Below are positions 1 through 20,574 of a DNA stretch of 38,825 bases, one piece after another. Both the position numbers and the translations under genes were made by a program. The notes under the pieces were generated by a model. That model was not told the origin of the DNA and ran no database searches. It saw nothing but the letters and a program-made list of their open reading frames with translations. The first letter of the stretch is position 1, and every line of letters starts with the position of its first letter. Source of the stretch: Mesorhizobium sp. (GTDB taxonomy: Bacteria > Pseudomonadota > Alphaproteobacteria > Rhizobiales > Rhizobiaceae); contig SAQE01000029.1 in NCBI GenBank assembly GCA_004020545.1, forward strand, positions 1 through 38,825. The letters run 5' to 3'.

Positions 1-23
1 GGGAGTATGCGAAGCAGGCGCGG

Positions 24-47
24 CTAGGCGGGGAGCGAGGCGCCTAG
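24..47. terminator. Weak hairpin at the end of the patatin-like gene
   Basis: CTAGGCG at 24-30 is the inverse complement of CGCCTAG at 41-47, with a 10-nt loop. The right arm overlaps the stop codon of the minus-strand gene at 44. No T tract follows. It may be a terminator-like fold or chance. Confidence 0.25.
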
Positions 48-901
48 ATGTATCGACTTTTGCAGGCTGTGGCCGGACTTCCATCAGTGCTGAGAGGATC
101 AGCGGCAAGCCAGTCTGCCGCGCGCTGCCGCCCCGTGTCGCGCATGTCGGTCAGTTCGCCCCAGTCGATCCAGGGCCGCAGGAGCAGCGAAGCTCCGGCA
201 CGGTATCGACTGTCGAATATGGTGTGAACCGGCACGCATTTGGTCAAGCAATGGCTGGCTGGGAGGCCGCGATCCGGACACGGCGTGGTGAATACGGAAG
301 GTCTGCCGGTGACAATCAGGCGATGGCGAGCTTCAGACGATAGGACAGGCGGCGACTGCAAGACGTCGCCGTCGCCCCAATAGATGTCGCCGTCGATCTC
401 GACAGGCAGCGAGAGGAAGGGGATCGTGGCTGCTGCCACGATCGCGTTGATGGACAACCGGTCGCTTGTGAATACCTTCACCGCATCTGTGCGCGCGTTG
501 ACGGCCAGGACGCCAAGTTTCACCGGGCAGTCTTCGTCACGGATTTGCTCGAGGTCGATTGACTGTTCCAGGACGGATCGAAGCAGGCTGGCTCTGCCAT
601 CGGCGAAAATCGAGGCGTGGCTGACGCGCCGCCAGAAATTGGCGAGTGCCGTCCGCGCGCCGCGCCTGCCGCCGACGCTCAAGCCATAGGCAAAGACGGC
701 CGCCTCCATCGCTGCAAAGCCCGACGCGGTGACGCTGCTGAAGCTGCAGCTCGGCTCGTCCAGCAGGCGATCGAGCACGCCCCACACGAAAGCGCCATGT
801 GCATCGTTTGCCAGCACGATGTCGATCGTCCGGTCTTCTACATTAAGATCAGCCACTGATGTGATGGCTTGGTCTGTTCTCATTGCGGGCTGGGTAAGCA
901 T
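44..901 (-). CDS. Patatin-like protein lacking the catalytic dyad (pseudo-phospholipase)
   Basis: The 285-residue product follows the rhizobial patatin phospholipase pattern: a beta strand leading into AHGAFVWGVLD near residue 35, then FAAMEAAVFAYGL near 62, a conserved FWRRVS, and DGDIYWGDGD near 170. Each functional motif is altered. The oxyanion GGG before AHGA reads AND. The nucleophile motif G-T-S-A-G-A-M-N reads A-S-G-F-A-A-M-E, so glycine sits at the serine position. The D-G-G/A motif after YW reads G-D-G. The middle also looks shorter than in active patatins. I infer a protein that keeps the fold but has lost hydrolase activity, perhaps a lipid-binding or regulatory role, or early decay of a still open frame. 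The start is ATG with a GGATGGAGA-type ribosome site. It is divergent from the small secreted protein gene at 1112, and a shared promoter motif lies 70 nt upstream (972-999). A patatin with intact motifs is encoded at 7516-8673. Confidence 0.8.
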   Translation of the reverse strand: MLTQPAMRTDQAITSVADLNVEDRTIDIVLANDAHGAFVWGVLDRLLDEPSCSFSSVTASGFAAMEAAVFAYGLSVGGRRGARTALANFWRRVSHASIFADGRASLLRSVLEQSIDLEQIRDEDCPVKLGVLAVNARTDAVKVFTSDRLSINAIVAAATIPFLSLPVEIDGDIYWGDGDVLQSPPVLSSEARHRLIVTGRPSVFTTPCPDRGLPASHCLTKCVPVHTIFDSRYRAGASLLLRPWIDWGELTDMRDTGRQRAADWLAADPLSTDGSPATACKSRYI

Positions 902-971
902 GGTTTGGTCTCCATCCCAAGATCGTCAACAAGGCGACTGGAGAGAGACTGCCGCATCTTCTTGTTCAGCC

Positions 972-999
972 GAAATGCCAAGGTGGCATGAAGTCCATA
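972..999 (-). promoter_or_regulatory. Shared bipartite motif, copy in front of the patatin-like gene
   Basis: Read on the minus strand, this is TATGGACTT-N12-GCATTTC. It ends 70 nt before the ATG at 901. It matches the motif upstream of lysR1, the cupin gene and bdhA in both half-elements and in exact spacing. It overlaps a second copy on the other strand (987-1014), so the divergent region carries two interleaved sites. A LysR operator is the favoured reading. Confidence 0.55.
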
Positions 1000-1014
1000 G
1001 GCAGATTGCATTGG
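987..1014 (+). promoter_or_regulatory. Shared bipartite motif, copy in front of the first small secreted protein gene
   Basis: CATGAAGTC-N12-GCATTGG lies 97 nt before the ATG at 1112. The left half is weaker than in the best copies, but the right half and the spacing are kept. It pairs closely with the copy at 1423-1450 in front of the paralogous gene. Confidence 0.4.
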
Positions 1015-1111
1015 CTGTCGGTCTTCGCGCGCCACACTCTTCATCCGATCAGGCCAGGTTGCTCGCTTGGCACCGTTGCTAGAGCCGCGGCCTGGAAGCA
1101 GGAGGATAATG

Positions 1112-1387
1112 ATGAGAGCAAAACTCACCTGTATGGCGGTGCTTGCCATAAGTCTTGGCGCAAATCCGGCGTCCGCCGACCCCTTCAGCGATCTTGCTGC
1201 ATTGCCGACGTTCTACACGGACGCCGCTATGAAGACGATGAAACCTATGGCTGGGTTCAAGAAGGCTTGGTTCGCCCTGTCAAAGCATGATCGGGTCAAG
1301 ATGACGAAAGCGTGCAACGACCCGGCAATGAGTAGGCCCCACGTTCAATTCTGCGCCAACGTGCTCGCTTTGGGCGGAGCCAATTAG
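1112..1387 (+). CDS. Small secreted two-cysteine protein, first of a tandem pair
   Basis: The 91-residue product starts at the second of two adjacent ATGs, 6 nt after GGAGG at 1101-1105; the ATG at 1109 is the alternative. Residues 1-22 form a signal peptide ending NPASA before DPF. The mature protein has F-Y-T-D-A-A-M-K-T-M-K, a tryptophan at 53, and a cysteine pair (C68 in ACND, C81 in QFCA) that could form a disulphide in the periplasm. It aligns without a gap with the next gene (1577-1852), with about 31 of 69 mature residues identical by hand count. I do not recognise a named family. The pair sits between a defective patatin and lysR1 and carries the shared promoter motif. Confidence 0.75.
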   Translation: MRAKLTCMAVLAISLGANPASADPFSDLAALPTFYTDAAMKTMKPMAGFKKAWFALSKHDRVKMTKACNDPAMSRPHVQFCANVLALGGAN

Positions 1388-1422
1388 CGGTGCTCGCCAA
1401 GCACCCTCGGAATGCATACCGG

Positions 1423-1450
1423 CATAAACTCCATTCGCACATGGCATTGG
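1423..1450 (+). promoter_or_regulatory. Shared bipartite motif, copy in front of the second small secreted protein gene
   Basis: CATAAACTC-N12-GCATTGG, 126 nt before the GTG start at 1577. The left half is the most diverged of the six copies. The right half and spacing are unchanged. Confidence 0.4.
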
Positions 1451-1576
1451 CCAGTTGAGCGCCGGATGAAGCAAAGTCCACCTCGGCAAGAAGGAACAAT
1501 AGAGTTCCAAAATTCTGTCGGTCATCAGTGCAGTCGTCAAAGGGGCGATTGCACAACTCCAGAGAAGGATCTTACC

Positions 1577-1852
1577 GTGAATATCAAAGCTATCTGCATC
1601 GGCGCATTTGCACTTTCCATGCTCGGCGGCGTCGCGTTCGCCGGCGCGCTCGACGAGCCGTCCAACATGCAGCCCTTCTTCACCGACGCCAGCATGCAGA
1701 CGATGAAGTCGAGTGCCGATTTCGCGGTCGCGTGGAAAGCCACGCCGAAGACCATGCAGGACGCGATGATGAAGGAATGCAACGACGCCGCCATGAGCAA
1801 GCCGCACGCTCAGTTCTGCGCCCAGCTTTTCGCCCTCGGCCACCACAGCTGA
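1577..1852 (+). CDS. Small secreted two-cysteine protein, second of a tandem pair
   Basis: The 91-residue product starts at GTG 1577, 7 nt after GAAGGA. A longer reading from 1412 would bury the signal peptide, so it was rejected. Residues 1-22 are a signal peptide ending GGVAFA. As in its neighbour, C68 and C81 are the cysteines, and the motifs FFTDASMQTMK, AW, ECND-AMS-PH and QFCA fall at identical residue numbers. Equal length and a gapless alignment point to tandem duplication with both copies under selection. Function is unknown. A small periplasmic binding or stress protein is possible but not shown. A hairpin follows the gene at 1887-1912. Confidence 0.75.
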   Translation: MNIKAICIGAFALSMLGGVAFAGALDEPSNMQPFFTDASMQTMKSSADFAVAWKATPKTMQDAMMKECNDAAMSKPHAQFCAQLFALGHHS

Positions 1853-1886
1853 TACTCCCAGATGGCGACCGACTACCGGACGCTTC

Positions 1887-1912
1887 GATGGCGGGTCTCT
1901 TGGCCCGCCATC
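1887..1912 (+). terminator. Hairpin terminator after the small secreted protein genes
   Basis: GATGGCGGG at 1887-1895 pairs perfectly with CCCGCCATC at 1904-1912 across an 8-nt loop, 34 nt after the stop at 1852. There is no long T run, so it may act as a transcript-end stabiliser rather than a classical terminator. Confidence 0.55.
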
Positions 1913-1928
1913 TGTCATGACGAAACGC

Positions 1929-1956
1929 TATCGACTTTATAGCCCCACTGCATTGG
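1929..1956 (+). promoter_or_regulatory. Shared bipartite motif, copy in front of lysR1
   Basis: TATCGACTT-N12-GCATTGG, 68 nt before the lysR1 ATG. The left half continues as TATCGACTTTATA, which fits the LysR-type T-N11-A dyad. A copy in front of the regulator gene itself would fit autoregulation. Confidence 0.55.
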
Positions 1957-2024
1957 CGTGATGGAATGCTTTGCGGCAGGGTTCGAGCCTGAACTTGCAT
2001 CTCTGCAGTGGAGGGACGACCCGT

Positions 2025-2939
2025 ATGGACATTCATCACATCCGCTATTTCCTGGCCGTCTGCGAGACACGCAATTTCACGCGCGCCGGCGAGAGGTGCA
2101 ACGTCACCCAGCCGGCGCTGTCCCGGGCAATCCAACAGCTAGAGGATGAAGTCGGCGGCTTGCTGTTTCGCCGCGAAAGAAACCTGACGCATCTGACGGA
2201 TCTGGGTGCGCTTCTTCGGCCACGGTTTCAGCAGATCCTCGATGAGGTGACCGGCGTTCGGCAGGAGGCGTCGAGGTTCCTGTGCCTGGAAAACGCAAAT
2301 CTGAAGGTCGGGGTCATGTGCACCATCGGCCCGCGTCGGTTCACCGGTCTCTTGGCGGACTTCAACAGGCGCCAGCAGGGCATCCAGTTGCAACTGGTGG
2401 AAGGTGTGCCCGCTTCGCTTTCGCAACTGCTGGAAGCGGGTGAGATCGATGTTGCCATCATGGCATCCAGCGATAGTTTCCCGGAGCGGTTCGACGTCAC
2501 GCCGCTCTATCGTGAGCGGTTCGTTCTTGCCTTCCCCAACGGCCATCGCCTGGCCCGCAACGACAATGTCGCCATCTCCGAGCTCGACGGCGAGAACTAT
2601 CTCAGGCGGCTGAATTGCGAGTATCGCGACCACCTCGCCGGCCTTTGCAACGATCGCGGCGTTAAGCTCAGAATCTCCTACGCCAGCGAGCGCGAAGACT
2701 GGATTCAGAACATGGTTTCCGGCGGGCTCGGGATTTGTTTCATCCCGGAATTCAGTGCCGTTATCCCGGGTCTGCAAATCAGGCCTGTCATCGATCCTGA
2801 AGTTTGGCGGGAGGTCTCGCTGGTCGTCGTGGCCGGGCGCCGGTTCTCGCCGGCGACGTCGACCTTCGTGAACAGCGTCAAGGCGCACAGCTGGCCGGAA
2901 AGCGGCATCGATCTGTCGGTCAGGAAGACCGCTGCTTAG
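2025..2939 (+). CDS. LysR-family transcriptional regulator (lysR1)
   Basis: The 304-residue product is of typical LysR length. The start at ATG 2025 follows GGAGGG with 9 nt spacing; an upstream in-frame start at 1971 was rejected. Residues 1-60 form the winged helix-turn-helix, with NFTRAGERCNVTQPALSRAI as the recognition region. A linker helix follows, and a two-lobe effector domain runs from about residue 90. Cysteines occur in LNCEYRDHLAGLC of the effector domain; the NCE is also present in lysR2 (5520-6431). The helix-turn-helix is nearly identical to those of lysR2 and lysR3 (12442-13347). The gene lies between the small secreted pair and the cupin-MFS-DUF302 group and probably controls one or both. 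The effector cannot be told from sequence. Confidence 0.92.
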   Translation: MDIHHIRYFLAVCETRNFTRAGERCNVTQPALSRAIQQLEDEVGGLLFRRERNLTHLTDLGALLRPRFQQILDEVTGVRQEASRFLCLENANLKVGVMCTIGPRRFTGLLADFNRRQQGIQLQLVEGVPASLSQLLEAGEIDVAIMASSDSFPERFDVTPLYRERFVLAFPNGHRLARNDNVAISELDGENYLRRLNCEYRDHLAGLCNDRGVKLRISYASEREDWIQNMVSGGLGICFIPEFSAVIPGLQIRPVIDPEVWREVSLVVVAGRRFSPATSTFVNSVKAHSWPESGIDLSVRKTAA

Positions 2940-3024
2940 CAAATGGAAGTGAAAGCCAAACGCCGCGATAAATGTCGTGGTGGGATGGCTGCGTTTGGTG
3001 CGGTCATCCACGATAGTTTTCAGG

Positions 3025-3052
3025 TATCGATTCAAGAGCCAGTCAGCATTTC
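3025..3052 (+). promoter_or_regulatory. Shared bipartite motif, copy in front of the cupin gene
   Basis: TATCGATTC-N12-GCATTTC, 77 nt before the ATG at 3130. Both half-elements are identical to the copy in front of bdhA (6559-6586), although the 12 bases between differ. That contrast argues for a protein-binding site rather than a recent duplication. Confidence 0.6.
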
Positions 3053-3129
3053 TCTTTCGTCGAGGCTGCCGTCACTCTCTTTTCATGCCCCGCCACCGCG
3101 ATTGGGCACCGACAAAGGAGAAATTAGAC

Positions 3130-3630
3130 ATGGCTTCCAAGACTATTGCATTGCGTCTGCCGCTGGAGGCGGCGCTGACACTCGGGCTTCTTACCGCAAC
3201 CGCTGCGTTTTCCGCAGCCCCGGCGTTCGCTGGCGACTGCCCTGCCGGCCAGGCCGCTACGACCGACATTCAGGAACATCCCAGCAAGCCGGTCGGGGTT
3301 ACTGACACGGTTCTCTCGGCGATCGACCTCAGCAGCAAGGGCGATGCCTGGAAAGGCAACATGCTGCGCCTGCGCAAGCTCGTCGTTCAGCCGGGCGGCG
3401 TGGTGCCGTGGCATGAGCACACGGTTCGTCCTGCCAACATCATCGTCGTCGAAGGCTCGATCACAGAATATGCCAGCACCTGCAAGGTCGGCATCGAGCA
3501 TCCGGCCGGCGACATGACCGCCGAGTTCGGTCAGCTCGCCCACTGGTGGAAGAACAACGGCAAGGTTCCGGCGGTTCTCTATTCGGCCGACATCCTGCCG
3601 CCTGCAATGCACGAAGACCACATGATGTGA
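3130..3630 (+). CDS. Secreted cupin-domain protein
   Basis: The 166-residue product starts at ATG 3130 after AAAGGAG (3114-3120). The first ~34 residues are a signal peptide with a long hydrophobic stretch ending APAFA. The rest is a single cupin barrel. VVPWHEHTVRPANIIVVEGSI gives the first cupin motif with a HEH metal-binding pair, and a second motif follows around GQLAHWWKN with one more histidine. The C-terminus has a histidine/methionine-rich MHEDHMM that might bind metal. Substrate is unknown; small periplasmic cupins include dioxygenases, isomerases and binding proteins. It lies after lysR1 and before the MFS gene, with a strong hairpin between. Confidence 0.8.
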   Translation: MASKTIALRLPLEAALTLGLLTATAAFSAAPAFAGDCPAGQAATTDIQEHPSKPVGVTDTVLSAIDLSSKGDAWKGNMLRLRKLVVQPGGVVPWHEHTVRPANIIVVEGSITEYASTCKVGIEHPAGDMTAEFGQLAHWWKNNGKVPAVLYSADILPPAMHEDHMM

Positions 3631-3673
3631 GCCGCTCGTTGCGGCCAGCAGATCCCAGCAGCAGCAACCAAAA

Positions 3674-3705
3674 GCGCGTCCTCGGGCGATCGCCTGGGGA
3701 CGCGT
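3674..3705 (+). terminator. Long hairpin between the cupin and MFS genes
   Basis: Bases 3674-3688 pair with 3691-3705 almost throughout (14 pairs with a 4-nt loop, three G-T), 43 nt after the cupin stop. No T run follows, and the downstream gene starts at once, so partial termination, attenuation or transcript-end protection are all possible. It would mask the GTG at 3704, which supports ATG 3722 as the MFS start. Confidence 0.5.
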
Positions 3706-3721
3706 GGCCACGGAGCCCGTC

Positions 3722-4924
3722 ATGACGACCACTGAACATACCGAACCGACGCGGCTCCGCATGGTGGCCGCAGATAGCTGGCGCTTCGGCCTGATCGCCC
3801 TGATTGCGTTCCTGACGCTCGTCGATCTGTTCGCAACCCAGGCCATCCTGCCTTCGCTGGTGACAAGATTTGGCGTCAGCCGCGCGACCATGGGCTTCGC
3901 CGTCAACGCCAGCACCTTCGGCATGGCGGTGGCCGGTATCGCCGTTGCGCTCTTCGGGCGCGGCATCGATCGCCGCAACGGCATCTGGATCAGCCTGGCC
4001 ATCCTGGCGATCCCGACGACGCTGCTTTCGCAGACAGAGAATATTGCGGTCTTCGCCCTGCTGCGCGTAGCGCAAGGTTTGTGCATGTCGACTGCTTTCA
4101 CGCTCACCATGGCCTACCTGGCGGAGCACTTTTCCGCTCGGCAGACCACGAGCGCGCTCGCGGCGTATGTGACCGGAAATGTTGCCAGCAACTTCTTCGG
4201 CCGGCTGATGTCGGCGGCCGTCGCCGACACGTTCGGCATCTCTACCAACTTTCTGATCTTCGCCGCCCTTAATCTGTTCGGCGCAGCTCTTGTCTGGTTC
4301 ACGCTGCAGAAGACCTCGGCAATGATGCGCGCAGATGCGACGGGCGGGCTCGCCCGCGCGGCCTGGAAAGCCCCGTTGCAGAACGTCGAGCTGCGGGCCT
4401 GTTTTGCGATCGGCTTCCTCATCCTCTTCGTCTTTATCGGCACGTTCACCTACGTGAATTTTCAACTCGTTGCGGCGCCCCTGTCATTGACCCCGATGGC
4501 GCTGGGCGCGGTTTATTTCGTCTTCCTGCCGTCAATGCTGACCACTCCGCTCGCCGGGCGTGTGGCCTCGGGCCTCGGCCCGAGGGTGGGGGTGGGCGCA
4601 ACACTCGGGCTGGCGATCGTCGGCTTGCTTCTGCTGCTCACACCCAGTCTTCCCATGGTCCTCGCCGGGATGGCGCTGGCTGCCAGCGGCACCTTCCTGG
4701 CGCAGGCGATAGCAACGGGACATGTGAGCAGAACGGCATCGCGCGACCGAGCCGCGGCAAGCGGGATCTATCTGGCCTCCTACTATGCGGGCGGCCTCGC
4801 CGGCAGCTTCGTCATAGGACAGATCTACGACCGGATCGGCTGGACGGCCTGCGTGGCCGCGCTGGTTGCGGTTCTCGCGGCTGCGATCGCGGTGGCCCGA
4901 ACGCTGAGAACGCCAGCCCCGTGA
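3722..4924 (+). CDS. Major facilitator superfamily transporter
   Basis: The product is about 400 residues with twelve hydrophobic segments, of the drug/sugar-proton antiporter type. The loop after helix 2 reads GRGIDRRNGIW, the usual motif A position. Helix 4 carries RVAQGLCMSTAFTLTMAYLAE, typical of the 12-helix exporters related to YnfM and the inner-membrane arabinose/purine exporters. ATG 3722 has GGAG 6 nt before it. A GTG at 3704 is in frame but lies inside a hairpin. It is followed closely by the DUF302 gene and is probably co-transcribed. Efflux of a small toxic or metabolic compound is likely; the substrate is not predictable. Confidence 0.88.
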   Translation: MTTTEHTEPTRLRMVAADSWRFGLIALIAFLTLVDLFATQAILPSLVTRFGVSRATMGFAVNASTFGMAVAGIAVALFGRGIDRRNGIWISLAILAIPTTLLSQTENIAVFALLRVAQGLCMSTAFTLTMAYLAEHFSARQTTSALAAYVTGNVASNFFGRLMSAAVADTFGISTNFLIFAALNLFGAALVWFTLQKTSAMMRADATGGLARAAWKAPLQNVELRACFAIGFLILFVFIGTFTYVNFQLVAAPLSLTPMALGAVYFVFLPSMLTTPLAGRVASGLGPRVGVGATLGLAIVGLLLLLTPSLPMVLAGMALAASGTFLAQAIATGHVSRTASRDRAAASGIYLASYYAGGLAGSFVIGQIYDRIGWTACVAALVAVLAAAIAVARTLRTPAP

Positions 4925-4995
4925 CCACCGGAGCTGCGCCGGAGGTCACCCGAGAAACTCAATCCATAGCCAACTCAGCAACCAAGGAGAATGCG

Positions 4996-5460
4996 ATGAG
5001 AGCCTACCTGAAAACCATGATTGCCGGTGCCGCCGTGCTGATGACGGTTGTCTTGCCGGCAGCCGCTTCCGACGGCGTCGTCACTATCAAGAGCGGCTAT
5101 TCCGTCGCCGAGACCGTGGCCCGCATCAAGAAGGACGTCCTCAAGAAGGGCATCATGTTCTTCGGCGTGATCGACCAGGCAAAGCTCGGCAACAAGGCCG
5201 GCAACGATGTCAGGCCTTCGCGGCTCGTCATGTTCGGCAATCCGGCGCTCGGCACGACGTTCATCACCTCAAATCCCGAGGCGGGCCTGGACTGGCCGGT
5301 GCGCGTGCTGGTCTACCAGACGCCCGATGGGCAGGTTTACGCCGCCTATAGCGACTTCGACTGGATTGCGAAGCGGCATGGCATTACTGACCGGCAGGCG
5401 CAGTTCAAGATGGCGACCGAGGTGATCCAGTCCGTCACGTCGTCCATCAGGAAGAACTGA
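4996..5460 (+). CDS. Secreted DUF302 protein
   Basis: The 154-residue product starts at ATG 4996, 6 nt after AAGGAG; an in-frame GTG at 4921 that overlaps the MFS stop has no comparable site. Residues 1-24 are a signal peptide (MTVVLPAAAS). The remainder is one DUF302 domain: SVAETVARIKKDVLKKGIMFFGVIDQ, then the family signature ALGTTFITSNPEAGLDWPVRVLVYQ, then YSDFDWIAKRH. DUF302 proteins are small alpha/beta domains of unknown biochemical role, often near stress or metal-handling genes. It probably shares a transcript with the MFS gene 71 nt upstream. It converges on lysR2. Confidence 0.87.
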   Translation: MRAYLKTMIAGAAVLMTVVLPAAASDGVVTIKSGYSVAETVARIKKDVLKKGIMFFGVIDQAKLGNKAGNDVRPSRLVMFGNPALGTTFITSNPEAGLDWPVRVLVYQTPDGQVYAAYSDFDWIAKRHGITDRQAQFKMATEVIQSVTSSIRKN

Positions 5461-5519
5461 CCGGCGCGAGGCGTCCAAATGCTTCGGCGCTTCGAGTCTG
5501 TCAGCCTTGCACAGCCAGG

Positions 5520-6431
5520 TCACTCGGCGGCGGACAACGCCTTTGCCCGCTCGCCGAACCATTTCTTCTGGGTCGCTTCGCGGACCAGGGCGCCGACCGC
5601 CGGCGAATGCTTGCGGCCGCGCACGGTGACGAGATTGACGTCGCGCCAGAATTCAGGCTCGGTGATCGGCAGGGCCACAACACCTGGGTGCTTGGCGGTG
5701 TGCTCTGGCATGAAACCAAAACCGAGCCCGGCAGCGATCATGGCAAGTGTCCAGTCGTCGCGGTCGCTCCAGTAGACGGGGCTGACGGTAACGCCCTGCT
5801 GGGCAAGGATGGCATCCGCGTAGCCGGCAAATTCGCAGTTGTTGCGGTGAATGTAACTTTCATTGCTCATGTCCTTTACCCGCACGACCCGCTGGTTCGC
5901 CAGCCGGTGAGCCAGGTGGACCGCCATCACCATCTGCTCGCGAAACAGCGGCAGGGCGTGCACTTCCTCGTCGGGAACGTCCGACGGCAATGCATAGATG
6001 GCGGCCTCGAGATCGCCTTCGAGCAATCTCTTTCGAAGATTCACGGCGTCTGAATCGCAAAGGTGAAGCTCCACGCCGGGGTGATGCCCACGGACGGCCG
6101 CGATCAGCTCGATGATCTCGTCCGGAGCGATCGTGCTCATGATGCCAAGCCTGAGCGGCATCCTTTTCAAATTCATATACTGCTCGGCGATCTGCTTTGC
6201 CTGGCGAGAATTCTCGAAGACACCCTCGAGATAGGTCTCGACCATGCGGCCGAGCTCGGTGAGGTGAGTGAACCGGCGCTCACGGTGGAAAAGCGCGCCG
6301 CCGAATTCGTCCTCCAGCAGCTTGATGGCACGCGAAAGCGCCGGCTGAGTGACGTTGCACTGCTCGGCCGCCCTGGTGAAATTCAGCTCCTTGGCAACGG
6401 CCAAGAAATATCTGACCTGGCTGATCTCCAC
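5520..6431 (-). CDS. LysR-family transcriptional regulator (lysR2)
   Basis: The 303-residue product starts at GTG 6431 with AGGGGA 8 nt upstream. The helix-turn-helix (NFTRAAEQCNVTQPALSRAI) is almost the same as in lysR1. The effector domain also matches: HRNNCEF against RLNCEY, SDRDDW against SEREDW, and EFWRDVNLV against EVWREVSLV. This makes lysR1 and lysR2 clear paralogues. It is divergent from bdhA across 274 bp, the classic layout for a LysR regulator and its target. A shared bipartite motif sits in that gap at 6559-6586. Its 3' end faces the DUF302 gene. Confidence 0.92.
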   Translation of the reverse strand: MEISQVRYFLAVAKELNFTRAAEQCNVTQPALSRAIKLLEDEFGGALFHRERRFTHLTELGRMVETYLEGVFENSRQAKQIAEQYMNLKRMPLRLGIMSTIAPDEIIELIAAVRGHHPGVELHLCDSDAVNLRKRLLEGDLEAAIYALPSDVPDEEVHALPLFREQMVMAVHLAHRLANQRVVRVKDMSNESYIHRNNCEFAGYADAILAQQGVTVSPVYWSDRDDWTLAMIAAGLGFGFMPEHTAKHPGVVALPITEPEFWRDVNLVTVRGRKHSPAVGALVREATQKKWFGERAKALSAAE

Positions 6432-6558
6432 TGCACGCTTCCCCTGGGCCGTGCATGGACGCGCGACCCGCGTTGCCGGGCGATCTTACAGGCTGCCCCA
6501 ACGTCAAACAACCCAGCCTGCAGATCTATGTCGCCGGCGAGCCGGTCAGACTGTCGGC

Positions 6559-6586
6559 TATCGATTCCATGTCTCAACGGCATTTC
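6559..6586 (+). promoter_or_regulatory. Shared bipartite motif, copy between lysR2 and bdhA
   Basis: TATCGATTC-N12-GCATTTC, near the centre of the divergent lysR2/bdhA region and 119 nt before the bdhA ATG. It has the same half-elements as the cupin copy. It could serve activation of bdhA and autorepression of lysR2. Confidence 0.6.
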
Positions 6587-6705
6587 CGCCTCTTCGCGCT
6601 GCTCGCCATACTTGATCAGAATTTCAGATTTGGGCGCACGCAAGCCCGTTGCTCGCAGCCGTTTGCTCGTCAATTCGGCCGCGACTTCAACAGAAGGAAA
6701 TGACG

Positions 6706-7488
6706 ATGCTCAGAGGAAAGACGGCGCTGATAACAGGCTCGACCAGCGGCATCGGGCAAGGCATCGCGGAAGCTTTCGCCGCCAAGGGCTGCAATGTCGT
6801 CCTGAATGGCTTTGGTGATGTCGCTGAGATCGAGCTGCTCCGATCGAGGCTCACCGCCGAACACGGGGTGACCGTCCGCTATGACAATGCCGACATGGCC
6901 AAGGGCGCGGCGATCACCGCGATGATGGACAAAGCCATCGCCGAATTCGGGGCAATCGACATCCTCGTCAACAACGCCGGCATTCAGCACGTGGCGCCGA
7001 TCGACGATTTTCCGATCGAGAAGTGGGAAGCGGTCGTGGCGATCGATCTCATGTCGTCCTTCTACACGATCCGGCGTGCCTTGCAGGCGATGAAGGCGCG
7101 CAAATGGGGCCGCATCATCAATGTCGCGTCCGCCCACGCCCTCGTCGCCTCGCCATATAAATCCGCCTATGTCGCCGCCAAGCATGGCGTGGCCGGCCTG
7201 ACCAAGACGGTCGCGCTCGAGGTCGCCGAACAGGGCATAACGGTCAACGCCGTTTGTCCCGGCTATGTGCTCACCCCGCTGGTCGAGAAACAGATTCCGG
7301 ATACGGCCAGGGCCCGCGGGATCAGCGAGCAGCAGGTGATCAAGGATGTGCTGCTGGCTGCCCAGCCGACCAAGCAATTCGTGACGGTGGAGCAGGTTGC
7401 AGCGCTCTGCCTGTTCCTGGCTTCGGACGAAGCCGCCTCGATCACCGGCGCCATCATGCCGATCGAGGGTGGCTGGACCGCTCACTAG
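6706..7488 (+). CDS. bdhA: D-3-hydroxybutyrate dehydrogenase
   Basis: The 260-residue short-chain dehydrogenase oxidises D-3-hydroxybutyrate to acetoacetate with NAD in the cytoplasm, a step in use of stored polyhydroxybutyrate. The start is the second ATG (6706), 8 nt after GAAGG; ATG 6700 is too close. The Rossmann motif TGSTSGIGQGIA is at residues 10-21. NNAGIQHVAPI follows, and the catalytic Ser142, Tyr155 and Lys159 are intact. PGYVLTPLVEKQI and the C-terminal GGWTAH are the features that mark this subfamily of SDRs. It is divergent from lysR2 and followed after 27 nt by a patatin gene and then a type II NADH dehydrogenase, so the NADH produced could be oxidised by the operon's own enzyme. 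Confidence 0.9.
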   Translation: MLRGKTALITGSTSGIGQGIAEAFAAKGCNVVLNGFGDVAEIELLRSRLTAEHGVTVRYDNADMAKGAAITAMMDKAIAEFGAIDILVNNAGIQHVAPIDDFPIEKWEAVVAIDLMSSFYTIRRALQAMKARKWGRIINVASAHALVASPYKSAYVAAKHGVAGLTKTVALEVAEQGITVNAVCPGYVLTPLVEKQIPDTARARGISEQQVIKDVLLAAQPTKQFVTVEQVAALCLFLASDEAASITGAIMPIEGGWTAH

Positions 7489-8703: not shown

Positions 8704-10098
8704 ATGCAGATCATGACTCCGGGCATGCGGCTCATTCCGGAAGCGGTGCTTGCCAATAACGCAGCGCTTTTCCGCACGATCCCCGAGACACCTTCGCACC
8801 GGGACAAATCGCTGCATCGCGTGGTCATCGTCGGCGGCGGCGCCGGAGGGCTGGAACTGGCGACCCGCCTTGGTCGCAAGTTCGGCCAAGGGCGGCTTTC
8901 GGTCACGCTGGTCGACCGCAGTCGCACCCATATCTGGAAGCCGCTCTTGCATGAGGTGGCATCGGGTGCCTTGAACGCTTCGCATGACGCGGTCGAATAC
9001 ATCGCCCACGCCAGTCGCAACCACTATCGATACCGTATCGGCGAGGTCGTCGGCGTCGACCGTGCAAAGCGCCAGATCTTCGTCGCGCCCAGCTTTGATG
9101 ACGACGGCAGGCAGATCATACCGCCGCGTGTTCTTGGCTATGACACACTGGTCATGGCCGTCGGCAGCGTCAGCAACGATTTCGGCACGCCAGGTGCTGC
9201 TCGCCACGCCATCTCGCTCGATACGGCGGAGCAGGCCGCCCGTTTCAACAAGCGCATGATAGACGCATGCCTGCGCGCCAATGCTCAATACGAGCAGCTT
9301 TCGCCTGGACAGCTTCACTGCGTCATCGTCGGCGCCGGAGCCACCGGCGTCGAGTTGGCCGCGGAATTGCACAAATCGATGCGGGAAATTGCCTCGCACA
9401 ATCTCGACAATATCGATTTCGAGAGGCTGATCCGCATTACTCTGGTTGAGGCAGGGCCACGCATCCTTCCTGCTCTTCCGGAGCATATGGCCCACGCTTC
9501 GGCGCGCCTGCTCATCAAGCTGGGTGTGCAGATCCGCTGCGGCATCAAGGTCACCGAAGTCACGGAAGACGGCATCCGGCTTGGCGAAAAACTGTTCCTG
9601 CCGGCCGAGCTCGTGGTCTGGGCGGCTGGGATCAAGGCGCCGGATTTTCTGAAAGGCCTCGATGGTCTCGAAACCGATCGCATCAACCGCCTGATCGTCG
9701 ACGAAACCTTGCGGACGGTCGGCGATGAGAATGTGTTCGCGATTGGGGACTGTGCGAACTGCGTGCTGCCGGGCGAAGACAGCGCCTTGCCGCCGCGTGC
9801 TCAGACAGCCCACCAGCAGGCCGACCACCTAGTGAAGGTGGTTGCAGCACGCCTCGCGGGGCAGGCTGTGCCGGCGTATCGCTACCGCGACTATGGTTCC
9901 CTCGTATCGCTCGCCGACTACGGTGCGTTCGGCAGCCTGATCGGAGGACTGAAGATCGAAGGTCTCGTTGCGAGGCTTGTCTATCGCTCGCTGCACAAGA
10001 TGCATCTCAAGACGGTGCACGGCCTCGCGAAGACGGCACTGACTTCGATCGGCGAGATGGTAGCCAGGCGTGTCAGGCCGCGGATCAAGCTTCACTGA
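8704..10098 (+). CDS. Type II NADH:quinone oxidoreductase (NDH-2 family flavoprotein)
   Basis: The 464-residue product has two dinucleotide-binding folds: VVIVGGGAGGLELATRLG near residue 41 for FAD, and CVIVGAGATGVELAAEL near 207 for NADH. FAIGDCA near 345 and RAQTAHQQADHLV near 365 follow; the latter is the quinone-side AQxAxQxA signature of NDH-2. The C-terminal 60 residues are amphipathic and basic, as expected for monotopic membrane attachment. NDH-2 passes electrons from NADH to quinone without pumping protons. Co-transcription with bdhA is likely (30 nt after the patatin gene), coupling NAD regeneration to hydroxybutyrate oxidation. A GGAGAA ribosome site precedes ATG 8704. Confidence 0.87.
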   Translation: MQIMTPGMRLIPEAVLANNAALFRTIPETPSHRDKSLHRVVIVGGGAGGLELATRLGRKFGQGRLSVTLVDRSRTHIWKPLLHEVASGALNASHDAVEYIAHASRNHYRYRIGEVVGVDRAKRQIFVAPSFDDDGRQIIPPRVLGYDTLVMAVGSVSNDFGTPGAARHAISLDTAEQAARFNKRMIDACLRANAQYEQLSPGQLHCVIVGAGATGVELAAELHKSMREIASHNLDNIDFERLIRITLVEAGPRILPALPEHMAHASARLLIKLGVQIRCGIKVTEVTEDGIRLGEKLFLPAELVVWAAGIKAPDFLKGLDGLETDRINRLIVDETLRTVGDENVFAIGDCANCVLPGEDSALPPRAQTAHQQADHLVKVVAARLAGQAVPAYRYRDYGSLVSLADYGAFGSLIGGLKIEGLVARLVYRSLHKMHLKTVHGLAKTALTSIGEMVARRVRPRIKLH

Positions 10099-10100
10099 TG

Positions 10101-10252
10101 CATGTCGCCCAAAAGTGTGCAGCGGTTTTGGGAGAATGACATGCATCGAAAGAAAGGACGCATGTCGCCCAAAAGTGTGCAGCGGTTTTGGGAGAACGAC
10201 ATGCATCAAAAGAGAGACTTGAAGCGCGTCGATCGAATCCGTTTCGACGCGC
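10101..10252. repeat. Tandemly duplicated 60-bp rhizobial intergenic repeat with terminal hairpin
   Basis: Two 60-bp units (10101-10160 and 10161-10220) are nearly identical over their first ~45 bases. The core is CATGTCGCCCAAAAGTGTGC followed by AGCGGTTTTGGGAGAA-GACATGCAT. The second unit runs on into a perfect 9-bp inverted repeat, GCGCGTCGA at 10224-10232 and TCGACGCGC at 10244-10252. This is the familiar style of intergenic palindromic element in Mesorhizobium and related genomes. Open frames across it are artefacts of the repeat. Confidence 0.8.
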
Positions 10253-10271: not shown

Positions 10272-11618
10272 ATGGAAACGTATGATGTTGTCATCCTCGG
10301 CGGCGGTAACGCCGGAATGGGTGTCACGCTCGCGACGCGCGCCGCCGGCCTCTCTGTCGCGATGGTCGAGGCGCACGACCTCGGCGGCGTCTGTCCCAAT
10401 CGGGGCTGCACGCCGAAGAAGGTGCTGGTCGCGGCGGCTCATGCGCTCGACGAGATCGACAAGGCCGATAGACATGAGATCAAGGTCGATAGGCCAAGGC
10501 TCGACTGGCGAGGTCTGATTGAGCGGGAAAAGGAAATCATCAGAGACATTCCATCCCGGCTGGCTACATTGATGGCCAGGCGTGGTGTCGATGTCATCTC
10601 CGGCGAAGCCGCATTCATCGGCAGCAATGCTATCCGCGTCGATGGCCGGGAACTCGAAGCCAGGAATATCGTCATCGCCACCGGCTCGAAGCCGCGTTCG
10701 CTGCCGATCCCGGGCGCCGAGCATTTGACGACATCCGACGATGTTCTGAGCGATCCGGAGTTACCACACGCCGTGGTTTTCGTCGGGGGCGGCGTCATTG
10801 CTTTCGAACTGGGGCATGTCTATGCGCGTGCCGGCGTCGAGGTCACGATCCTAGAGGCACTGCCGCAGCTCCTCGGAGGCTTCGACGCGGACGCCGTCGC
10901 TCTGCTCCGCGCCGAGAGCGAGCGGCTGGGCATCAGCATCCATACCATGGCTTGGGTGGAGAGGATCGACGAGGCCGATGGGCGACTACGGGTGAGTTTC
11001 GTGAAGGACGGCGTCGAATGCCTGGTGGACGCGGATCGGGTCGTCAACTGCGCCGGGCGCGTGGCCAATGTCGAGGGCCTCGATCTTGGCGCCGGTGTCA
11101 TCGTGCACCGAGAAGGCCGTATCGAAATCGATGATCACCTGCGCTCGCGCTCCAATCCCGATGTCTATGTCTGCGGCGACGCGGTGTGGAACTCCCCGCA
11201 GCTTTCGCCGATAGCGACCTATGAAGGCGGGATCGTGGGCCGCAACATCGTCGACGGACCGAAGCATCGACCCGATTACAGTCATATCCCAGCCTCGCTC
11301 TACAGCATCCCGGCCGTGGCAAGCGTCGGACTGACCGAAGCCAAGGCGAGGGAACGGGGCCTTCATGTCAAGATCCATGTGAACGACATGCAGGGCTGGC
11401 TCTCCGCCAGGACCTATGCCGAGGCGGTCGCATGGTCGAAGATCATCGTCGAGGAGCCAACGGGTCGGATTGTCGGAGCCCATCTGGTAGGCCATGCCGG
11501 CGAGGAGCTGATCCACATCTTCGCGCTTGCCATGAAGCACGGCATTCCCGCACGCGGGCTGTCCGAGATGGTCTACGGGTTCCCAACTTTTTCGGCGGAT
11601 ATCAAGAATATGATGTAA
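10272..11618 (+). CDS. Glutathione-reductase-like NAD(P)/FAD oxidoreductase
   Basis: The 448-residue product is a class I pyridine nucleotide-disulphide oxidoreductase. It has the FAD fold DVVILGGGNAGM at residues 5-16, redox-active C41 and C46 in GGVCPNRGCTPKK, a second fold VVFVGGGVIAFELGHVYARAG near 175, FAD-contacting VYVCGDAVW near 298, and a dimerisation domain at the end. The C-terminal motif that normally reads HPT-x-S-E reads FPTFSAD, so the His-Glu acid-base pair of glutathione and dihydrolipoamide reductases is absent. The disulphide substrate is therefore unlikely to be glutathione or lipoamide. ATG 10272 follows the repeat element. It is separated from the NADH dehydrogenase gene by 173 nt and is followed by a peroxiredoxin-like gene. 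Confidence 0.87.
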   Translation: METYDVVILGGGNAGMGVTLATRAAGLSVAMVEAHDLGGVCPNRGCTPKKVLVAAAHALDEIDKADRHEIKVDRPRLDWRGLIEREKEIIRDIPSRLATLMARRGVDVISGEAAFIGSNAIRVDGRELEARNIVIATGSKPRSLPIPGAEHLTTSDDVLSDPELPHAVVFVGGGVIAFELGHVYARAGVEVTILEALPQLLGGFDADAVALLRAESERLGISIHTMAWVERIDEADGRLRVSFVKDGVECLVDADRVVNCAGRVANVEGLDLGAGVIVHREGRIEIDDHLRSRSNPDVYVCGDAVWNSPQLSPIATYEGGIVGRNIVDGPKHRPDYSHIPASLYSIPAVASVGLTEAKARERGLHVKIHVNDMQGWLSARTYAEAVAWSKIIVEEPTGRIVGAHLVGHAGEELIHIFALAMKHGIPARGLSEMVYGFPTFSADIKNMM

Positions 11619-11759
11619 CGCGCCGATCCGGGGCCACGAATAGAACATGAACCTGGCCATGCATTGATGCACGTGGGGCATCGAAACCATGCAGGAAAAG
11701 CATGGTAAATGCCGAGGGGCTTCGGTGATAGGCTGCGGGCGACATGTGAAAGTGCAGAA

Positions 11760-12458
11760 ATGGCAGCCGAGGCAATGACATTCGAGCAGTCCGTCCAGGC
11801 AGCCATCGAACTTGATGCGCCTCTCAATGAACGGCTGGCGGTAGTTGCAGCGGCGGTCCGGCGCCTGAATTCCGAATTCGCGGACGCGGTGGAAAGGCTG
11901 GTGGATCGCCTGGAGAAACAGGGAGCCGGCGCCATGGCTCCGGTCGCCGGGGAGGTCATGCCCGGTTTTCTGCTGCCCGATGACGAGGGCAAGCTTGTCA
12001 GCCTGGCAGAGATCCTTGCAAAGGGCCCAGCCGTCGTCACCTTCCAGCGCGGGCATTGGTGTCCCTATTGCCGCTTGAACGCCATCGGCATTGTCGAGGT
12101 GCAGCGCCAGATTGCGGAACTGGGAGGCCAGGTCGTCGTGATCATGCCGGAGCGGCGCAAATTCGCCAAAGCCATGAAGGCTGCGGTCGGCGCGCAGTTT
12201 CCATTCCTGATCGACATGGATAACGGCTATGCCCTGTCCCTCAACCTTGCGATCTGGGTCGGAGCCGAGATGGAGCGGCTGATGGGTGTTGGTTATGATC
12301 TGCCGAGCTACCAGGGCAACAGCAGCTGGTTTCTGCCGATACCCGCAACCTTCATCGTCGCAACGAACGGGATCATCACAGATCGCTTCGTCGATCCGGA
12401 CTACCGCCGTCGGATGGACATCGACGAGCTGATCGCGGCGCTCAGGCGGGCTCGCTGA
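11760..12458 (+). CDS. Peroxiredoxin-like AhpC/TSA thioredoxin-fold protein
   Basis: The product is about 232 residues. An N-terminal helical segment (FEQSVQAAIELDAPLNERLA onward) is followed by a thioredoxin-fold domain starting at PGFLLPDDEGK. The active site is QRGHWCPYCRLN with C101 and C104, the CxxC form of AhpC/TSA-like proteins. It likely reduces peroxides or protein disulphides in the cytoplasm; there is no signal peptide. The start is uncertain: ATG 11760 is preferred, 11709 and 11775 are in frame, and none has a strong ribosome site. The stop overlaps the end of the convergent lysR3 gene by 17 nt. It follows the glutathione-reductase-like gene after 141 nt, so the two could form a reductase/peroxidase pair. 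Confidence 0.8.
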   Translation: MAAEAMTFEQSVQAAIELDAPLNERLAVVAAAVRRLNSEFADAVERLVDRLEKQGAGAMAPVAGEVMPGFLLPDDEGKLVSLAEILAKGPAVVTFQRGHWCPYCRLNAIGIVEVQRQIAELGGQVVVIMPERRKFAKAMKAAVGAQFPFLIDMDNGYALSLNLAIWVGAEMERLMGVGYDLPSYQGNSSWFLPIPATFIVATNGIITDRFVDPDYRRRMDIDELIAALRRAR

Positions 12459-13347
12459 CGCCGAAAGACGACCAGTCGGCCGATCTCAACAGATTGAGCA
12501 ACGTTGCCGCGACAGGCGAGCGCTGCCTGCCGGCAACCGCATAGACGGAAACGATCCGCGAAACGTCCAGATCACGAAGCTTGAGCCGGCGGGTGTTCGT
12601 GGATCGCGGTGCCGTAAGCGAGACAAAGCCGACCCCGGCATTGGCCTCAAGCAGCGCAAGAAGGTCCTGGTCGGTCTCGACTTCATGCGCAGTCCGCGGC
12701 GAATAGCCTTTTGCTGAAAGGCAACGCGACAGTTCCTCGCTCGTCTCCCAATCGATCCGGCTAAGCACGGGTTCCGCGGCAAGCTGAGCCAACGCGACGT
12801 CGGCCTCATTGCGCCGAGCCAGCGGATGATCGGAATTCACGGCTAGCTCGATCCCCTCCTGGAAAAGTGGCCATGTGTCGAGGCGATCCCAAACCTGGCC
12901 CAGCGGGCCGGCAACGGCTAGTTCGACTTCACCGCTTTTAAGCGCCTCTACTACAGCCGCCGGCGAGCCGCGATGGATTTTGAGATGCGCGCCGGGATAG
13001 GCTCGAAAAAGCTCGGTGAACGGCGAAACCAGCAGCGCAATGTTGACGCTGTTCGAAATCGTGACGTTGAGAGGGGCGACGTCGCTGCTTTGCACTGCCT
13101 TGGCCAGTGACTTGGCAGAGGTCGCCGCGTCGTAGCACTGCTGCAGCAAGGGCAGCATGCGCCGGCCAAGTTCGGTCAAGTGGGAATGTTGGCGTTCACG
13201 ACGAAGAAGCTCTCCGCCTAGCTCCTCCTCCAGCGTCTTGATGGCTCGCGTCAGCGCGGGCTGAGTGACGTTGCACTCCTCGGCCGCTCTGGTGAAGTTC
13301 AACGTGCTGGACAGGGCCAGAAAATATCGGACCTGCTGCATCTCCAT
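12442..13347 (-). CDS. LysR-family transcriptional regulator (lysR3)
   Basis: The 301-residue product starts at ATG 13347 with a GAGGGGG site upstream. The helix-turn-helix (NFTRAAEECNVTQPALTRAI) matches those of lysR1 and lysR2, but the effector domain (VNIALLVSPFTELF, WETSEELSRCL) is clearly more distant and lacks their NCE segment. It is divergent from gabD across 249 bp and convergent with the peroxiredoxin-like gene. gabD is the more natural target by layout. No copy of the shared bipartite motif was found in its upstream region, so its operator is probably different. Confidence 0.9.
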   Translation of the reverse strand: MEMQQVRYFLALSSTLNFTRAAEECNVTQPALTRAIKTLEEELGGELLRRERQHSHLTELGRRMLPLLQQCYDAATSAKSLAKAVQSSDVAPLNVTISNSVNIALLVSPFTELFRAYPGAHLKIHRGSPAAVVEALKSGEVELAVAGPLGQVWDRLDTWPLFQEGIELAVNSDHPLARRNEADVALAQLAAEPVLSRIDWETSEELSRCLSAKGYSPRTAHEVETDQDLLALLEANAGVGFVSLTAPRSTNTRRLKLRDLDVSRIVSVYAVAGRQRSPVAATLLNLLRSADWSSFGVSEPA

Positions 13348-13596
13348 GAAATTTCGCCCCCTCAGCGAAATCCGGCTTTTCAGGCATGGCTAATTCGTTG
13401 CTATGCTAACGCAACCGGAAATCCAAGCAAGGTCGAGGGACGATTCGCCTAAACTTGGCTCCGCGAAACAATTGTGACGCCGGCTGCAACGGGTGGGTCT
13501 ACCGCCGTCCTTCCCAGGCCCTATGAGAGGCGTGGATGCGCGGCATACACGTTGGCGCCATTGACAACCATCAAGCTGCTCGAGGAGGAGACCGGT

Positions 13597-18215: not shown

Positions 18216-18787
18216 TCAACCACCACCTTTGCGCCCACCGCCACGCGCTTGAAGAGATCGATCACATCGGTATTCGTCAGTCTAAAGCATCCGGACGTGC
18301 CGTCAAAGCCGACACCCTTGGGATCGTTGGTGCCATGGATGCGATAGAGTGTGTCGCGTCCGTCGCGCGACAGATACAGCGCCCTGGCGCCGAGCGGATT
18401 GTAAGGGCCGGCCGGCACCATCGCCGGCAGCTCCGGCTGGCGGGTGCGCATCTCCTTGGGCGGACGCCATTGTGGCCACTCGGTCTTGGATGCGACCTTG
18501 ACCGTCCCCGTCCAGCCGAACCCGTCGCGGCCGACGCTGATCTGGTAGCGCAGCGCCTGGCCCGGGCCCGTCACCAGATAAAGCGCCTTTTCGGTCTTGC
18601 GGATGATGATCGTGCCTGGTTGCTCGCCGGTCTGGAAGGCGACCGCCTTGCGCAGGCTGGGACCCATGGCGGGAAGCGGCGGCAGGCCCGATCCGGCTGC
18701 GGCGAAACCGCAGGCCGACACCAGCGCCATGCCGGCCAGGCACGCGCCCGCCACGCTCGCAGCAATGCGGCGCTTAGCGCTGGGCAT
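18212..18787 (-). CDS. L,D-transpeptidase (YkuD domain)
   Basis: The 191-residue product has a signal sequence that may be a lipoprotein signal (LVSAC near residue 26), then a YkuD catalytic domain. The active-site motif is complete: His151 in RIHGTND and Cys167 in TSGCFRLT, with the arginine two positions on. Such enzymes make 3-3 peptidoglycan cross-links or attach proteins to peptidoglycan. Its start lies 14 nt inside the end of cpaE. It is therefore transcribed with the Tad pilus arm, which is unusual and suggests a role in fitting the pilus machine through the cell wall; this is inference. Confidence 0.85.
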   Translation of the reverse strand: MPSAKRRIAASVAGACLAGMALVSACGFAAAGSGLPPLPAMGPSLRKAVAFQTGEQPGTIIIRKTEKALYLVTGPGQALRYQISVGRDGFGWTGTVKVASKTEWPQWRPPKEMRTRQPELPAMVPAGPYNPLGARALYLSRDGRDTLYRIHGTNDPKGVGFDGTSGCFRLTNTDVIDLFKRVAVGAKVVVE

Positions 18788-19937: not shown

Positions 19938-20572
19938 GGCGACGTACTCTTTAAATCTTCACCCGTTACAGTACTCAGCATGGAAGGCATGGTGATGTTA
20001 GTGAACCCCATCAGTCCCTGGAGAAAGAAGAACTGGAAGGTCACGCTCTGAAGGCTGACGGTGATGGTCGGCACCGGGCCGCCTGCTCGCGTCTGGTAGC
20101 CGAGTCCGGTGGCCGTATATCGTACAACTACGTTGTCCGGCTGTAGCCTTGGAAAGAAATGACACATCCCCGGCCGTTGCCCCGCGGCAAGCGGCGGACA
20201 AGTGCCTGTTCCAGTCGCGTCTCCGCGAAAAATTCGATTGAAATTCGCAGGAGTAAAAGTTCCAGGCACGCACCCTGAGCCGGCACAACTGCACACGCTC
20301 GTGGCACCGTTGCATGTATAATCGAAATTGCCCGCCGGTATGGGAGCGCCTGGCGTGGTCGTAATTCCAGCTGTGGCAATCTGAGGCGCGATTGGATCCG
20401 AGATCGAGGCCAGCCGGGCGCCGATCTGCACTGCCTTCGTCGCCGCGTTCCATTGATAAAAGGCATTGCCGAAATCGACGAAGCCCAGCACGAGGGCAAA
20501 CAGCAGCGTCGACACGATGGTCATTTCGACCATTGCCGCGCCATCCTCCGATGCTGCGAAACGCCTGATCAT
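19934..20572 (-). CDS. tadE: TadE-like minor pseudopilin, second copy
   Basis: The 212-residue product starts EDGAAMVEMTIVSTLLFALVLGFVDFGNAFYQW, the TadE/TadF N-terminus. A prepilin-type cleavage site after glycine is followed by glutamate at +5 and a hydrophobic helix. The periplasmic part has several cysteines (CNGATSVCSCAGSGC) and a final hydrophobic stretch near LQSVTFQFFFLQGLMGF. Such proteins are minor components processed by the CpaA/TadV-type peptidase. It follows the other tadE-like gene after 2 nt and overlaps cpaE by 4 nt. Confidence 0.85.
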   Translation of the reverse strand: MIRRFAASEDGAAMVEMTIVSTLLFALVLGFVDFGNAFYQWNAATKAVQIGARLASISDPIAPQIATAGITTTPGAPIPAGNFDYTCNGATSVCSCAGSGCVPGTFTPANFNRIFRGDATGTGTCPPLAAGQRPGMCHFFPRLQPDNVVVRYTATGLGYQTRAGGPVPTITVSLQSVTFQFFFLQGLMGFTNITMPSMLSTVTGEDLKSTSP

Positions 20573-20574
20573 GA

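Follow-up and report, generated by a model that had tools for sequence, protein, structure and literature searches.

The window analysed here is the whole 38,825-nucleotide contig SAQE01000029.1 (G000:C110) of a 7.0-Mb genome (assembly GCA_004020545.1) whose nearest named relatives are Mesorhizobium. Towards its left end lies a cluster of genes around two regulators of the LysR family, lysR1 and lysR2, and the promoters of this cluster share a recurrent DNA element that we consider, with good confidence, to be the operator of a clustered regulon under a LysR-type transcriptional regulator (LTTR). The genes are as follows.

44–901, minus strand: patA, patatin-like (Pfam Patatin under the cut-off), nucleophile-serine position replaced
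1109–1387, plus strand: sm1, for a small protein whose N terminus looks like a signal sequence; no match in Pfam or in NCBIfam
1577–1852, plus strand: sm2, for a second small protein similar to Sm1, again with a signal-like N terminus and no match in Pfam or in NCBIfam
2025–2939, plus strand: lysR1, with Pfam HTH_1 and LysR_substrate; likely the main regulator
3130–3630, plus strand: cupin-domain protein gene (Cupin_2 slightly under the cut-off)
3722–4924, plus strand: major facilitator superfamily (MFS) transporter gene, family assigned by sequence
4996–5460, plus strand: DUF302 protein gene
5520–6431, minus strand: lysR2, LysR family; sister regulator, adjoining operator O5
6706–7488, plus strand: bdhA, 3-hydroxybutyrate dehydrogenase, exceeding the cut-off of TIGR01963
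7516–8673, plus strand: patB, patatin with DUF3734
8704–10098, plus strand: ndh2 (name from the preliminary description), pyridine nucleotide-disulphide oxidoreductase family
10272–11618, plus strand: flavin disulfide reductase family gene, with 54–58% relatives near distant LysR1 relatives in loci L097 and L098
11709–12458, plus strand: peroxiredoxin-like gene, Redoxin/AhpC-TSA

The proteins Sm1 and Sm2 are probably secreted. Directly left of the window, a bufferin-type operon stands under the same operator at G000:C10:107–2818, bases 1–46 of contig C10 being the reverse complement of window positions 1–46. It encodes a DUF2282 protein and an MbnB/TglH/ChrH-type MNIO enzyme by Pfam, with DUF2063 and DoxX homologues next to them; the latter two were identified by Pfam in the relative L083 and by tblastn on C10 and C166, and the complete gene set of a Buf1 cluster (DUF2282 precursor, MNIO enzyme, DUF2063 partner, DoxX) is thus present left of the window. 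The sole NrsF match in the genome (C148:12376–12963) lies outside the cluster. A second copy of the cluster occupies approximately positions 88850–103860 of contig C166 (L146), with LysR1 98% and patA 84% identical. Its operators are the same, but before its peroxiredoxin gene no operator above threshold was seen. The genome's two MNIO genes are both found in operons under the operator, and the bufferin operon, just outside the window, is the most telling member of the regulon.

A four-box element at a fixed distance from a predicted promoter

The preliminary description had reported six copies of a two-part motif with a constant 12-nt gap. All six sequences are present as reported, with an A at position 11 in every reading and AT at positions 11–12 in five, and the three distances to start codons given as 68–77 nt are confirmed (patA 71, lysR1 68, cupin 77 nt). 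Six independent operators, however, must be rejected: because 972–999 (minus) and 987–1014 (plus) overlap as opposite-strand readings of a single palindrome, the six readings correspond to only five operators. The two-part motif is real but incomplete, as an outer-left box and a −10-like CANNNT at +20 extend the element, and the site list, correct for the sites it held, had missed operator O6 and the bufferin operator on C10.

The element was defined from 64 operators aligned without gaps. These had been selected with a 28-nt pattern, which favours its own columns and does not include the outer-left box. The alignment describes a 43-bp, four-box element, ATGC-N8-TAT-N7-ATR-N8-GCAT, in which columns A17, T18, A26 and GCATT (37–41) are invariant and columns A4, T5 and A21 are at least 90% conserved. 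The outer-left box reads ATGC, also ATAG or ATGA, and the outer-right GCAT is mostly followed by TTC or TGG. The T-N11-A dyad expected of an LTTR operator is found as TAT-N7-ATR (variants CAT on the left, AAR/ACA on the right). Measured from the middle of the element, the boxes are centred at −16.5, −5, +5 and +16.5, approximately one helical turn apart, and the copy at 972–1014 is itself symmetric (GAAATGC-N8-CAT-N7-ATA-N8-GCATTGG).

For comparison, 76 loci around LysR1 relatives (L031–L106) were collected. The close set comprises the window and L031–L064, L090, L091, L095 and L096 (LysR1 at least 93% identical; every locus but L045 and L051 carries a Mesorhizobium label), and the second set L065–L088, L093, L094 and L105 (LysR1 74–80% identical; labelled mostly Rhizobium and Sinorhizobium/Ensifer, with a Mesorhizobium label on L065, L066, L068 and L079). 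The operators of the window and the −10-like hexamers downstream of them, given with the share of promoters that have CANNNT at the same offset, are listed below.

972–1014, both strands: operator O1, serving patA (minus) and sm1 (plus); contains 972–999 (minus) and 987–1014 (plus)
1408–1450, plus strand: operator O2, before sm2; weakest of the sites in the preliminary description
1914–1956, plus strand: operator O3, before lysR1; in the same alignment columns in 39/39 close-set promoters
3010–3052, plus strand: operator O4, before cupin-MFS-DUF302
6544–6586, plus strand: operator O5, before bdhA-patB-ndh2, between bdhA and lysR2
11664–11706, plus strand: operator O6, upstream of the peroxiredoxin-like gene, with GCATGG as a variant right box; model E 0.34
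946–951, minus strand: CAGTCT of patA, at +20; 97% of 39 distinct close-set patA promoters
1035–1040, plus strand: CACTCT of sm1, at +20; 90% of 10 close-set sm1 promoters
1977–1982, plus strand: CAGGGT of lysR1, at +20; 95% of 41 close-set lysR1 promoters
3073–3078, plus strand: CACTCT of cupin, at +20; 100% of 38 close-set and 100% of 22 other promoters
6607–6612, plus strand: CATACT of bdhA, at +20; 100% of 35 close-set and 96% of 25 other promoters

CANNNT starts exactly 20 nt past the right box in five of the seven window readings (patA, sm1, lysR1, cupin and bdhA) and in the bufferin operon on C10. Across loci, bufferin promoters seldom have CANNNT at this position (3% of 36 and 12% of 24), and NANNNT stands at +20 in all of them (36/36 and 24/24). 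The same offset recurs at 19 further places (L148 and L160–L173; best strand per place, score at least 20), of which 13 have CANNNT and 18 NANNNT at +20, any other offset being found at two at most. The element thus shows the fixed placement relative to a predicted promoter that is looked for in an LTTR operator, and LTTR genes, lysR1 and lysR2, lie in or beside the cluster.

Distribution and conservation of the predicted operator

Two matrices were used to score the window. Matrix 1 was trained on 49 operators outside the 38 closest loci, with L065, L066, L068 and L079 included, and matrix 2 on the 33 that remained after these four Mesorhizobium-labelled loci had also been removed. With matrix 1, operator readings take ranks 1–7 (scores 37.1 to 13.8), and with matrix 2 ranks 1–8 (35.6 to 10.9), namely 972–1014 on both strands, 6544, 3010, 1914 on both strands, 1408 and 11664. 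The best scores in 100 dinucleotide shuffles were 16.1 and 17.5 for matrices 1 and 2, respectively, so that all operators except O2 (1408–1450) and O6 (11664–11706), four in number, score beyond the shuffle range, and these two are not significant on score alone. The support for O2 and O6 as candidate operators is instead their conservation at the same place: O2 is kept with at most two mismatches in 26 of 32 distinct sm2 upstream regions, and O6 is conserved in all six relatives examined (L139–L144).

In its own genome, a sequence-only operator model returned 14 matches at E < 0.1, all of them in the window, on C10 or on C166 and all before genes; the possibility raised by the preliminary description that the motif is as frequent inside genes as upstream of them is thus not borne out. 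The simpler pattern TATSGAYTY-N12-GCATTKS gave six exact matches, none of them outside the window cluster and its paralogue, five with one mismatch, of which four lie in cluster copies or on C10, and 55 with two mismatches, which are scattered and none of which reached E < 0.1 with the fuller model. These scattered matches exceed the control, since the reversed pattern gave 12 matches against 66 in all for the true one. Outside the cluster copies and C10, no match reached E < 0.1, and a genome-wide regulon is therefore rejected: the regulon is clustered. The LysR regulon proposed in the preliminary description is supported in this narrower form, and it gains the bufferin operon.

Across loci L031–L106, operators were counted within 420 nt upstream (at most two mismatches, either strand) of genes with at least 250 nt of upstream sequence available, leaving out lysR1 rows below 40% identity and patA and bdhA rows below 50%. 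They were present for lysR1 in 68/77, cupin in 61/63, bdhA in 64/65, sm1 in 26/26, sm2 in 23/28 and lysR2 in 32/33. The patatin PatA had been called defective, an assessment with which its sequence agrees, as TSAGA in the nucleophile-serine region has become SGFAA; the operator nonetheless precedes 37/37 such genes with enough upstream sequence. The operator is missing in L046 (bdhA and lysR2), before cupin in L072 and L088, before five sm2 genes and before nine lysR1-like genes; of these nine, seven are distant and two are the second member of a tandem pair (L089 and L092). In the Mesorhizobium locus L046 (10373–10535), the gap between lysR2 and bdhA is shorter than in relatives and the operator is gone, which makes this locus a natural test of bdhA control. 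A scan of 385 genomes of the class (operator threshold E <= 0.001) found operators in 10 genomes besides our own, at 14 places, ten of which lie before homologues of bufA (5), bdhA (3) or cupin (2).

Conservation was measured as mean pairwise identity in eight sets of orthologous promoters, aligned without regard to the motif. Values are given for the left half, spacer, right half and remaining upstream sequence, followed by the rank of the site when the two-part frame was slid along the alignment.

Close set, lysR1 (39): 0.95, 0.75, 1.00, 0.53; 1st
Close set, cupin (25): 0.89, 0.87, 1.00, 0.70; 16th
Close set, bdhA (38): 0.96, 0.95, 0.98, 0.52; 3rd
Close set, patA (32): 0.93, 0.97, 0.99, 0.69; 18th
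Close set, sm2 (32): 0.82, 0.82, 0.99, 0.58; 2nd
Second set, bdhA (24): 0.77, 0.70, 0.97, 0.47; 1st
Second set, cupin (17): 0.89, 0.79, 1.00, 0.50; 2nd
Second set, lysR1 (25, site in 16): 0.63, 0.53, 0.75, 0.29; 1st

The right half is more conserved than the spacer in all eight sets and the left half in six, being equal to it for sm2 and lower for patA, which argues against half-elements that diverge as fast as the 12-nt spacer. The difference is clear for close-set lysR1 and for bdhA and cupin in the second set. The half-elements mostly outlast the spacer, and elsewhere the whole stretch is conserved.

Probable regulators and competing explanations

LysR1 and LysR2 are 69% identical in the helix-turn-helix (HTH) domain and 31% in the remainder. 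Among 41 genomes (our own and 40 relatives; operator threshold E <= 0.1), the nine with at least four operator matches are the same nine that encode a LysR1 at least 79% identical, and among 297 genomes of the family (E <= 0.001), ten have the operator, nine of which are all nine with a LysR1 of at least 77% identity. The tenth, G258 (L148), has no LysR1 match at E 1e-80. Its LysR protein is 56% identical to LysR2 and 42% to LysR1, is placed in the LysR2 clade by the tree, and is encoded divergently from a cupin-MFS-bdhA-patatin run with the operator in between. Three close-set loci (L051, L054, L095) yielded no lysR2 within the locus, and all three keep the bdhA operator. Because the operators track LysR1 and the bdhA operator is kept in such loci, LysR1 would be enough to explain the sites. 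We consider LysR1 likely to be the main reader of the operator, and LysR2 may plausibly share its sites; the cross-regulation suggested in the preliminary description is made plausible by the HTH similarity and by the LysR2-clade regulator that stands beside the same operator in G258.

More distant LysR1 relatives (41–49% identical) have AT(A/G)C and (G/T)TAT boxes at the same spacing directly upstream in six of eight cases, with no match of this variant pattern elsewhere in the same loci; the letters of the pattern, though not its spacing, were drawn from these sequences themselves. L103 (44%) and L104 (41%) showed no variant operator, and a ninth relative, L099, was left out for want of upstream sequence. 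Beside the regulators of G072 and G129 (51–52%) only weak operators were found, and beside those of G245 and the second LysR of G104 (47%) none above threshold. Genes near these distant relatives encode a cytochrome P460 (L098), DUF417 proteins (L098, L101), a sulphur transporter (L097) and a disulfide reductase like that at 10272–11618 (L097, L098). Within the window, a third LysR-family gene (12442–13347) lies beside an aldehyde dehydrogenase gene (13474–15072), outside the operator set.

We propose the following mechanism, in which we infer binding, tetramer, −35 assignment, activation and signal: LysR1, perhaps with its sister LysR2, would bind the four boxes as a tetramer, with the central T-N11-A dyad as the primary site, and the GCAT box would abut a −35 element (TTTCNN or TTGGCN). 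Since GCAT would abut the −35 and the −10-like hexamer lies at a fixed 20 nt, the bound regulator could touch RNA polymerase and activate transcription. Because the element is symmetric, one copy could serve two divergent promoters, as may be the case for patA/sm1 here and for bdhA/lysR1 in Rhizobium and Sinorhizobium. The regulon would then comprise the bufferin operon, bdhA-patatin, cupin-MFS-DUF302, lysR1, the degenerate patatin, the two small proteins and, weakly, the peroxiredoxin.

Several observations weigh against an LTTR operator of this kind. The scores of O2 and O6 fall within the shuffle range, sm2 has its CANNNT at +21 (as do 88% of 26 sm2 promoters), O6 has none at +20, the signal is weak in lysR1 promoters outside the close set (19% of 26), and the bufferin hexamer begins with G instead of C in 34/36 and 21/24 promoters. 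The close-set bdhA and patA promoters do not discriminate, because their spacers are about as conserved as the halves, and the two-part frame ranks only 16th of 122 (cupin) and 18th of 104 (patA) in the close set. The bdhA operator is lost in L046, and four of the 14 places in the class scan (L160, L166, L171, L173) have no recognised target. Five of the 41 genomes (G012, G017, G024, G032, G036) have one weak operator match each and no LysR1 at E 1e-60, and the P values for co-occurrence ignore shared ancestry.

It is also conceivable, although we regard it as unlikely, that LysR2 reads the operator in place of LysR1, or that each reads some of the copies. The gene lysR2 adjoins O5, the LysR2-clade gene of G258 is accompanied by a second operator before DUF302 as well as the one at cupin, and in G564 (L165), whose LysR1 content was outside the comparison, a LysR2-clade regulator lies between operators. 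Against this, L051, L054 and L095, with no lysR2 found in the locus, retain the operator of bdhA, and operators persist in Rhizobium and Sinorhizobium loci that have LysR1 and, over the locus stretch, no LysR2. That the conserved blocks are instead the −35/−10 promoter of an alternative sigma factor would agree with the promoter-like spacing of the right box and the +20 hexamer, and in Caulobacter bufferin-type operons are driven by the extracytoplasmic function (ECF) sigma factor F, according to the available part of PMC3511200. We nevertheless consider this highly improbable, given that any −35 would have two more boxes upstream of it, arranged symmetrically around a T-N11-A dyad, that the element tracks LysR genes, and that it differs from the sigma-F sequence GTAACC-N16-CGAA quoted there; the only NrsF gene found is on C148, no separate search for sigma-factor genes near the cluster having been made. 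We give even less credence to the idea that the likeness arose when promoter segments were duplicated within the cluster and that it now serves no function. The cluster is indeed duplicated on C166, and sm1/sm2 and patA/patB look like paralogues, but the boxes persist while the remaining upstream sequence diverges, these genes have the same boxes upstream in other families of the class as well, and the −10 spacing is fixed.

Relation to known systems and significance

The operator of an LTTR regulon, as we read the element, resembles the canonical LTTR layout, described in the available part of PMC4834489 as a T-N11-A primary site with a secondary site and divergent regulation. Like it, the system presented here has a dyad upstream of its targets, a regulator gene in the cluster, often divergent, and secondary contacts that would reach the −35. 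In contrast, the outer boxes are conserved in sequence on both sides, so that a symmetric and bidirectional element is possible, the dyad centre would lie near −54 and not −65 (an estimate that assumes a start 7 nt after the −10), and in Mesorhizobium lysR1 has a separate forward promoter built in the same way, where the canonical layout has a divergent promoter that is repressed.

By sequence, the closest solved structure to LysR1 is that of an OxyR (4x6g). Oxidised OxyR makes four contacts approximately one turn apart, a spacing that the four boxes match. Cys208 of LysR1 aligns with a cysteine of 4x6g, and Cys198 aligns one residue beside what we take to be the position of the reactive cysteine of OxyR. 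A true OxyR was considered for LysR1, which scores 123.6 bits against a cut-off of 329 for the OxyR equivalog in NCBIfam. As a possible redox pair, the two cysteines were traced across the aligned rows: Cys198 is present in 69/70 near, 7/8 distant and 34/34 LysR2 rows, and Cys208 in 65/70, 1/8 and 0/34, respectively (L104 being outside these rows); Cys208 is thus missing from LysR2 and from seven of the eight distant LysR1 relatives.

The bufferin operon has its counterpart in the sigma-F/NrsF (gig) operons; the term bufferin is taken from the papers on these. As far as the available parts of PMC3511200 and PMC12452194 describe them, sigma factors and NrsF occur with bufferin clusters, and in Caulobacter sigma-F controls DUF2282-DUF692-DUF2063-DoxX operons (PMC3511200). 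DUF2282, MNIO (DUF692), DUF2063 and DoxX are common to these and to the operon on C10. Here, however, NrsF lies outside the cluster, and the promoter has an LTTR-type operator in common with bdhA-patatin and cupin-MFS. In searches that left subscription journals largely outside, no paper from 2024 on combined LysR with bufferin(s), or LysR with DUF302, cupin and hydroxybutyrate dehydrogenase, and none of any year combined LysR, patatin, 3-hydroxybutyrate dehydrogenase and Mesorhizobium; literature on LysR with patatin, DUF302, DUF2282 or bufferin yielded no description of such a regulon.

Elsewhere in the window, a 60-bp unit is repeated 1.9 times at 10100–10213, between ndh2 and the disulfide reductase gene, and genes for a Tad/Flp-type pilus (Tad, secretin, T2SSE, T2SSF) and a large protein with RTX-type repeats occupy 18774–28677 and 36419–38719.

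General background and the bufferin papers suggest that the regulon probably answers metal or oxidant stress of the envelope. We further put forward, tentatively and as a possibility that may well prove wrong, that several families of Alphaproteobacteria have a one-component stress switch made up of two OxyR-related sister LysR regulators with one shared operator, a switch that would turn on bdhA-patatin and cupin-MFS along with a bufferin metallophore; the symmetric element would act in both directions, and two regulators would let different signals reach the same promoters.

In summary, for a bufferin operon without an adjoining NrsF gene, our analysis predicts which regulator controls it and precisely which sequence serves as its operator. 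The operator would tie bdhA-patatin, cupin-MFS and the small proteins to the same response, so that their role becomes directly testable, and it can be used to find further members of the regulon.

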